Assembly: GCA_026981985.1 (NCBI GenBank)
Contig: JALSHZ010000114.1
Location: 1-64,000, forward strand
Length of the DNA stretch: 64,000 nucleotides
From: Gammaproteobacteria bacterium
Lineage (GTDB): Bacteria; Pseudomonadota; Gammaproteobacteria; UWMA-0217
Direction: 5' to 3'
Shown here: in pieces, positions 46,043-64,000 of the stretch
Position numbering within the stretch: position 1 is the first letter of the stretch
Layout of the letters: each line of letters starts with the position of its first letter
The notes under the pieces: generated by a model
Databases searched by the model: none
What the model was told of the DNA's origin: nothing
The model's input: the letters and a program-made list of their open reading frames with translations, nothing else
Program-made: the position numbers and the translations under genes

Positions 46043-46065
46043 TCTCCATTTGTGTTGATGAAAAA

Positions 46066-46156
46066 TGAGCGCCGTTGTTGCTGGTGAAACCTCGGAACAG
46101 AGGGTTCGAGTCGGGGCTGAGCCTGGCGGAAATCCGTCGCAACGCTCCTCAGCCCG
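46066..46156 (-). promoter_or_regulatory. SAH (S-adenosylhomocysteine) riboswitch upstream of ahcY
   Basis: Minus strand: CGGGCTGAGGAGCGTTGCGACGGATTTCCGCCAGGCTCAGCCCC...AACGGCGCTCA. P1 GGGCTGAG/CTCAGCCC, CAGGCTC core, and a 3' CGCTC able to pair with GAGCG, as in the SAH riboswitch pseudoknot. Ends ~24 nt before the ahcY start. Confidence 0.9.
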
Positions 46157-62652: not shown

Positions 62653-63072
62653 GGTGGTTGCTCCAGGAGGAGGGCAACCACGAATTCAGCGGCGAAAAGT
62701 CAAGAAGTCTACGGCAGTCGCAGCGGAATTCGCGGCTGCCGGGAAAATCAGATCAGAATGATTACGATTGGCAGCTCGGCGCAGGCAGTAGCCAGCGGCG
62801 TCGCAGCCAGAGTGTGCTGGTGGAAAAAATGGCGGTGTCGAATATCATGTCCGCAAGGCTATAAGCGGATTATGAACCTGTCAAGCACAGACAGCACAGG
62901 CATGCAGACTGGGTGGCAATCAATGTAGGCCGTTCTCCATGCTGCAATTCAGGACCCCAATGGCAATACTCGACCAATCACATTTTCAGTCGTCGATCAG
63001 GTAAATAACAATTCTATTTTTGTGTTAGCCATCATGCACAACAGCAGAAAACCAGGTTATTGGGAAGGCCGC

Positions 63073-63348
63073 ACATAACAAGGCACTTCAACACGGACAG
63101 GCCTCCGCGCTGCTTGTTTTGTGGTAACTACTCAGCTTACCCCCTTATTTGCGCCAACTCTGCGTTGGAAGTGCTCATTTACACTTGTAAACTGCGCGCT
63201 TCCGCCTCGATTTGACGCAAAACGGGGGCAATCTGAGCAGTTACGAGACTGTGCTGAGTAGTTACGTTTTGTGTTGTCATTCCGCTGCGCTGCATTATCG
63301 CACAAAACAATCAACGCTCCGGCCTGCCGGTTAAGTGCGACATTAGGC
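63073..63348 (+). other. attC-like integron recombination site (~126 bp without insert), interrupted by a MITE
   Basis: Arms GCACTT(C)AAC(A)CGG(A)CAGGCC (63083-63103) and GGCCTGCCGGTTAAGTGC (63321-63338) pair with three unpaired bases on one side. The stem continues to TTGTTTTGTG / CACAAAACAA. R''-like ACATAAC (63073-63079) and R'-like ATTAGGC (63342-63348), each separated from its L box by 5 nt. Confidence 0.75.
63124..63265. mobile_element. 142-bp MITE, IS66-like ends
   Basis: Perfect 13-bp TIRs GTAACTACTCAGC / GCTGAGTAGTTAC flanked by perfect 8-bp direct repeats GTTTTGTG (63116-63123 and 63266-63273). No ORF inside. Inner C5/G5 and GGAAG...CTTCC pairing. Confidence 0.88.
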
Positions 63349-63735
63349 TTTCGGAAAGGAGTGTTCACCGAACCAGCGAGAAAGGTCCTTCTCGGTTAAT
63401 TTGCCAGCAGCCAGATCTTTAATTACAACAACGGCATCCGGTTCCGGGGAAGCTAGAACGTAGCCATTTATTTCCAAAAATATCGCCGCAATGGTTAAAG
63501 CAATCCGTTTGTTGCCATCAACAAAGGGGTGATTGCTCGCTAATCCATAGCAATATGAAGCAGCGAGGTCAAAAATTGAAGAGTCAACGGCATATTCAAA
63601 ACGTTGCCGAGGACGATTTAGTGCAGATTCAAGCAGGGTGTGATCACGTATTCCGGGTGCACCCCCATGTTCAGCCAGCAGCATCTGATGAACGGCAGCT
63701 ACTACCTCTGTCAATACCCAGTCTGGTTCCTTCAT
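63343..63735 (-). CDS. doc: Death-on-curing (Doc) family toxin, Fic fold
   Basis: 130 aa with intact HPFVDGNKR motif; GAPGIRDHTLLESALNRPRQ. Confidence 0.93.
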   Translation of the reverse strand: MKEPDWVLTEVVAAVHQMLLAEHGGAPGIRDHTLLESALNRPRQRFEYAVDSSIFDLAASYCYGLASNHPFVDGNKRIALTIAAIFLEINGYVLASPEPDAVVVIKDLAAGKLTEKDLSRWFGEHSFPKA

Positions 63736-63956
63736 TTTGCAAGTTCGTGGAGGGCGTTTCGGTATTTCTTCATGACTTTCTCAGCTGCTTGCATCTGCTT
63801 CTCAAAATCGTGCTGGTAGGGGGTAAGGGTCAGGCCCTCTGGCCCCTCAACCAAATACAAGACATCACCCTTTTCTGCCCTGAGCTTCGTAAGCGCTTCT
63901 TTTGGCAACACAATCCCCATGGAATTACCGATCGAAGTGACTTTTACTTTCAACAT
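63732..63956 (-). CDS. AbrB/MazE (SpoVT-AbrB fold) antitoxin
   Basis: 74 aa: MLKVKVTSIGNSMGIVLPKEALTKLRAEKGDVLYLVEGPEGLTLTPY; 4-nt overlap with doc. Confidence 0.92.
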   Translation of the reverse strand: MLKVKVTSIGNSMGIVLPKEALTKLRAEKGDVLYLVEGPEGLTLTPYQHDFEKQMQAAEKVMKKYRNALHELAK

Positions 63957-63975
63957 GGTAGTATGCCCCGATAGA

Positions 63976-63992
63976 GTTATAACATAAGTTAT
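63976..63992. promoter_or_regulatory. Possible operator upstream of the TA operon
   Basis: Overlapping palindromes GTTATAAC and ATAAC-ATAA-GTTAT 20 nt upstream of the antitoxin start. Confidence 0.4.
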
Positions 63993-64000
63993 TACGCAGT

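Follow-up and report, generated by a model that had tools for sequence, protein, structure and literature searches.

CALINs consist of attC sites and cassettes that lie away from intI, with intI elsewhere in the genome, and IntegronFinder 2 by default calls a CALIN when at least two attC sites are present (PMC9024848). In the sedentary chromosomal integrons of Vibrio cholerae, toxin–antitoxin pairs with their own upstream regions are placed between attC sites (PMC11023631). The VCR site is a long attC with a large terminal structure and three extrahelical bases, G16, T20 and T24, spaced 4+4 (PMC2727003). Mobile elements inside or at attC sites are represented by the IS1111-attC group and the group IIC-attC introns, and insertions that target attC are already known from work cited in PMC12444791. 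CALINs, toxin–antitoxin cassettes and attC-targeting insertions are thus all on record; their combination at the locus described here is a new example. The locus probably represents (probability about 0.8) a fossil, integrase-distant integron fragment of the CALIN type, in which a cassette lies between an attC site (attC1) and a decayed second one (attC2), and which is interrupted by a MITE. As in CALINs, intI is found elsewhere in the genome, on contig C36 and not on C114, where the locus lies. In contrast to typical CALINs (PMC9024848), only two sites are present, one degenerate and one interrupted. Because the default is two intact sites, the locus may escape routine calling.

The window, that is, the whole stretch of 64,000 nucleotides that was analysed, corresponds to positions 1-64000 of C114, one of 149 contigs of the source assembly; five genomes represent the order in the comparison. 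The features of the locus are as follows, R1 being the covariance model described below.

63073-63079, + strand: R'' box ACATAAC of attC1, from the sequence and its alignment to R1, with one mismatch to the consensus RYYYAAC
63085-63103, + strand: L'' arm of attC1, with extrahelical C63089, A63093 and A63097 seen as three one-base bulges in DNA folds
63116-63123, + strand: left copy of the target-site duplication GTTTTGTG, from the sequence and a script
63124-63265, no strand assigned: MITE of 142 bp with GTAACTACTCAGC and GCTGAGTAGTTAC as terminal inverted repeats, many copies in the genome and 8-bp duplications
63266-63273, + strand: right copy of the target-site duplication GTTTTGTG, from the sequence and a script
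63321-63339, + strand: L' arm GGCCTGCCGGTTAAGTGCG of attC1, pairing with L'' in DNA folds
63342-63348, + strand: R' core ATTAGGC of attC1, from the sequence; all 19 attC sites of the model have G at its first base
63343-63735, - strand: Doc-type (Fic/DOC) toxin gene (PF02661, 65.8 bits; motif HPFVDGNKR), with its TAA stop codon inside the R' box
63732-63956, - strand: MazE/AbrB-type antitoxin gene (PF04014, 30.7 bits)
63970-64000, - strand: antitoxin upstream region with the palindrome GTTATAAC-N-GTTATTAC, which recurs in homologues by flank comparison
C114 64009-64068, outside the window: degenerate attC2, found with R1

attC1 extends from 63073 to 63348 on the + strand and is 126 nt long once the MITE and one copy of the duplication are taken away. 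The models and the DNA folds agree on an R''-L''...L'-R' box layout and on a bottom-strand stem with extrahelical bases. Because these bases are spaced 4+4, the orientation of the site can be assigned, and the arm that carries them is the one predicted for an attC on the + strand. Folded as DNA, the insert-free bottom strand (128 nt) reaches -30.4 kcal/mol and shows three one-base bulges; its shuffles reach -19.5 +/- 3.0 kcal/mol (z -3.6; 0 of 200 as stable). An R'-like heptamer, GTTAGCC, is present at 63024-63030 of the window, 43 bases to the left of attC1; it may be the left boundary of a very small cassette lacking an ORF, or may have arisen by chance.

A search of the genome itself with a simple attC core pattern gave nothing convincing apart from attC1, and a covariance model was therefore built. 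Nineteen attC sites were collected from other genomes with a box-and-stem scan and aligned (alignment A1); several belong to arrays or adjoin integron integrases, and the site of the window was kept out. Both R1 and a pair-profile scorer were made from A1; they are models of this study and neither IntegronFinder nor HattCI. When 1.7 kb was searched by cmsearch with R1 and filters off, the top match coincided exactly with 63073-63348 and spanned the insert (E 0.05, 11.5 bits). In the pair-profile scorer, attC1 without the insert reaches 43.4 bits, within the range of held-out attC sites (about 33-58 bits), whereas 1.57 Mb of reversed DNA, scanned on both strands as a control, gave at most 30.7 bits. 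attC1 is thus far above chance by R1 and by the scorer, two tests that rest on one shared training set, and the scores are empirical rather than exact because some control loci overlap and the training sites were self-selected by the scan. The sequence-only reading had described an attC-like palindrome that emerges at 63073-63348 once an insert is removed, and both these scores and inspection of the sequence bear out its coordinates, boxes, stem and insert. It had also held that a lack of other attC sites in the genome would speak against an attC here; two more were found with R1, at 20195-20291 of C59 (48.1 bits) and at 1986-2057 of C55 (42.5 bits).

attC1 shares with VCR-type sites its length, the three extrahelical bases spaced 4+4 and the large terminal structure, but differs from them in having ATT in place of GTT in the R' core and a terminal structure enlarged by the MITE (PMC2727003). 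The conserved GTT is replaced by ATT at 63342-63344, and CGTT is invariant in 19 of the 19 model sites of A1. Because the GTT of its R' core is changed, attC1 is classed, as judged from its sequence, as a genuine but decayed attC and not as an active one. GTT has been described as the sole absolutely conserved part of the core (PMC10609294), and the G-to-A change is for this reason expected to be the more serious, and likelier to be the disabling lesion than the MITE. The R' box had been noted before as one change away from GTTAGGC, which is correct as sequence but not as a minor difference. The R' core of attC2 is likewise changed, to GTCAGGC, and because both R' cores are mutated the attC remnant is probably immobile. 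It is unlikely that attC1 is still functional, so that the IntI of this genome, acting in trans, would excise or shuffle the toxin–antitoxin cassette in spite of the MITE and the ATT core. IntI is full length, the stem and the extrahelical bases are kept in the fold with the insert, and loop length matters little for single-stranded delivery: when the VCR terminal structure was replaced, recombination changed only 1.6-2.4-fold with DNA arriving by conjugation (PMC2727003). In replicative conditions, however, recombination is lower by up to 4 logs with long terminal structures (PMC8946536), and both R' cores, ATTAGGC and GTCAGGC, depart from a sequence that is invariant in the model sites.

The insert is a MITE by its size of 142 bp, its lack of coding sequence, its matching end repeats, its 8-bp duplications and its many copies in the genome. 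In seven other copies that were examined, 6-8 of the 8 duplicated bases match, and the duplication sequences differ between copies. It is distinctly unlikely that the MITE targets attC sites or hairpins like the IS1111-attC elements. This copy sits in an attC, and the same end sequence occurs near two other attC sites at the contig ends of C55 and C59; however, the duplications of the other copies differ in sequence, and their removal, where the duplication matches, left no attC-like site. Because none of the other checked insertions of the MITE is in an attC, targeting is unlikely and, unlike in the IS1111-attC group and the group IIC-attC introns, the insertion looks untargeted, the other copies in the genome having 8-bp duplications of varied sequence. 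The MITE-type end sequence GTAACTACTCAGC near the ends of both other attC-bearing contigs (L293:3316, L294:10415) may explain breaks of the arrays in the assembly. Longer elements of about 0.9-1.1 kb are bounded by the end repeats of the MITE (L017:1501-2407, L020:1501-2409 and L029:431-1570), and no recognisable transposase was seen by eye among the ORFs listed for two of these three. An IS66-type mobiliser was considered and rejected, there being no PF03050 match in the genome.

When the bottom strand is folded with the insert, the recombination stem and its bulges are kept, and the MITE folds into a separate, second hairpin within the loop. The MITE is thus placed in the variable terminal loop, and the stem recognised by IntI is predicted to stay foldable. 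The MITE had been expected to alter the folded bottom strand, but in the computed fold the part recognised by IntI is undisturbed. A site carrying such a self-folding MITE in its loop could still be recombined in trans by IntI, the MITE acting as a natural long-loop switch that would permit recombination for single-stranded incoming DNA and not during replication; this is regarded as very improbable.

Equally improbable is that the main chromosomal integron array of the genome has its edge at this locus. In favour of such an edge, the gene for a full-length IntI stands at a contig end, that of C36 (scoring 476 bits against TIGR02249, where the cut-off of the NCBIfam integrase_gron entry is 265; best PDB match 2A3V, E 1.2e-98), so that its own array is not assembled beside it. 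However, chromosomal genes flank the remnant on both sides on C114, a 140-kb contig, the genome-wide search with R1 found no further attC on it, and the end of the array is better sought at the attC on C59, which lies by a contig end. The sequence-only reading, which saw no integrase and proposed a lone attC or an integrase-less cassette cluster continuing past 64000, holds for the window as to the integrase but not for the genome, and holds as to an integrase-less cassette remnant but not as to the continuation. Beyond 64000 there is only the degenerate attC2, followed by chromosomal genes, and the locus is therefore not the start of a long array. Judged by eye from the ORFs and not by a family search, the genes beyond attC2 read as a Na/Pi cotransporter, an MscK-like channel, RecX, AlaS and an aspartate kinase. 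attC2 itself is weak, which counts against the CALIN-type explanation: it scores 7.5 bits with R1 (E 0.48 in 1.7 kb) and 20.5 bits in the scorer, both derived from A1. The match to a genome of the same genus (G001) begins at 64633 and runs rightwards, with other genes to its left in G001. No empty or MITE-free site was found in the relatives compared, including G001, and the missing empty site likewise counts against the CALIN-type explanation. Several tandem-like copies of a unit of about 120 bp (CCTGTAACT...GGATGCAGGAATCCAG...) lie downstream of intI on C36 (L039:12040-12540). On C55 (L293, 1-2057) and on contig C175 of another genome (G003; L235, 532-2452), an IS91-type Y2 transposase gene, which has a tyrosine recombinase gene beside it, ends just upstream of an attC; this adjacency in two genomes of the family may reflect insertion beside attC. 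An SAH riboswitch (RF01057, 58.2 bits) is also present in the window at 46060-46156 on the - strand.

The cassette between attC1 and attC2 is a reverse-oriented MazE/AbrB–Doc pair, extending from 63343 to about 64062. The earlier description of the attC-like site had missed this cassette to its right, together with the toxin stop codon in the core. A Fic/DOC toxin with the HxFxDGNKR motif adjoins an antitoxin gene, as in Doc toxin–antitoxin systems, and the palindrome GTTATAAC-N-GTTATTAC is a possible operator. Like the cassettes of Vibrio cholerae (PMC11023631), the pair and an upstream region of its own are enclosed by attC sites, but the pair is of the MazE/AbrB–Doc type, is reversed relative to the attC sites and has the toxin stop in the R' core. 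That the palindrome is an ordinary hairpin, for example the terminator of this operon, resembling attC by chance is the least probable reading of all: it does follow the toxin gene immediately on the minus strand and forms a stable fold, but its 43.4 bits exceed the highest value in 1.57 Mb of control, 30.7, it scores only 16.8 bits in the reverse orientation, and the genome has other attC sites and an IntI.

The closest homologues of the Doc pair outside the order were compared, together with the 56-58% relatives within it. The Doc of an Escarpia tubeworm endosymbiont (L045) is 67% identical, and its stop codon lies in the intact GTTAGGC of an adjoining attC-like site, which is weak (13.6 bits); a strong attC (35.7 bits) lies 3 kb away. 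In another homologue (L050), the DNA match runs through the antitoxin upstream region into GCCTAACAATAGCGTCAACACGG, the counterpart of the 5' half of attC2. No convincing adjoining attC was found in L046-L049, L051, L052 and the 56-58% relatives of the same order, two of these loci ending at contig ends. The family thus occurs both in and outside cassette-like settings, and the pair may not have originated as a cassette, which counts against the CALIN-type explanation. All Doc homologues in plasmids are below 60% identity, and no DNA-level match was found in plasmids or phages.

In the CALIN-type reading, the cassettes would have come via IntI, which either acted in trans on a secondary, attG-type site or left them as the relic of an older array. 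attC1 would then have lost the G of its R' core to give ATTAGGC, and the L'/R' half of attC2 would have decayed. A copy of the common genomic MITE presumably inserted itself into the variable terminal structure of attC1, making the 8-bp duplication. From the published effects of loop length, the insert would mainly hinder folding during replication, and the core mutations would be a likelier cause of immobility than the insert. The intact-looking toxin–antitoxin operon may help to keep the locus. The MITE inside attC illustrates one way in which routine calling can miss an integron remnant. The locus also offers a natural case for comparing two lesions, the G-to-A change in the core and the enlarged terminal loop, and adds a toxin–antitoxin cassette in which the toxin gene terminates at the recombination core.
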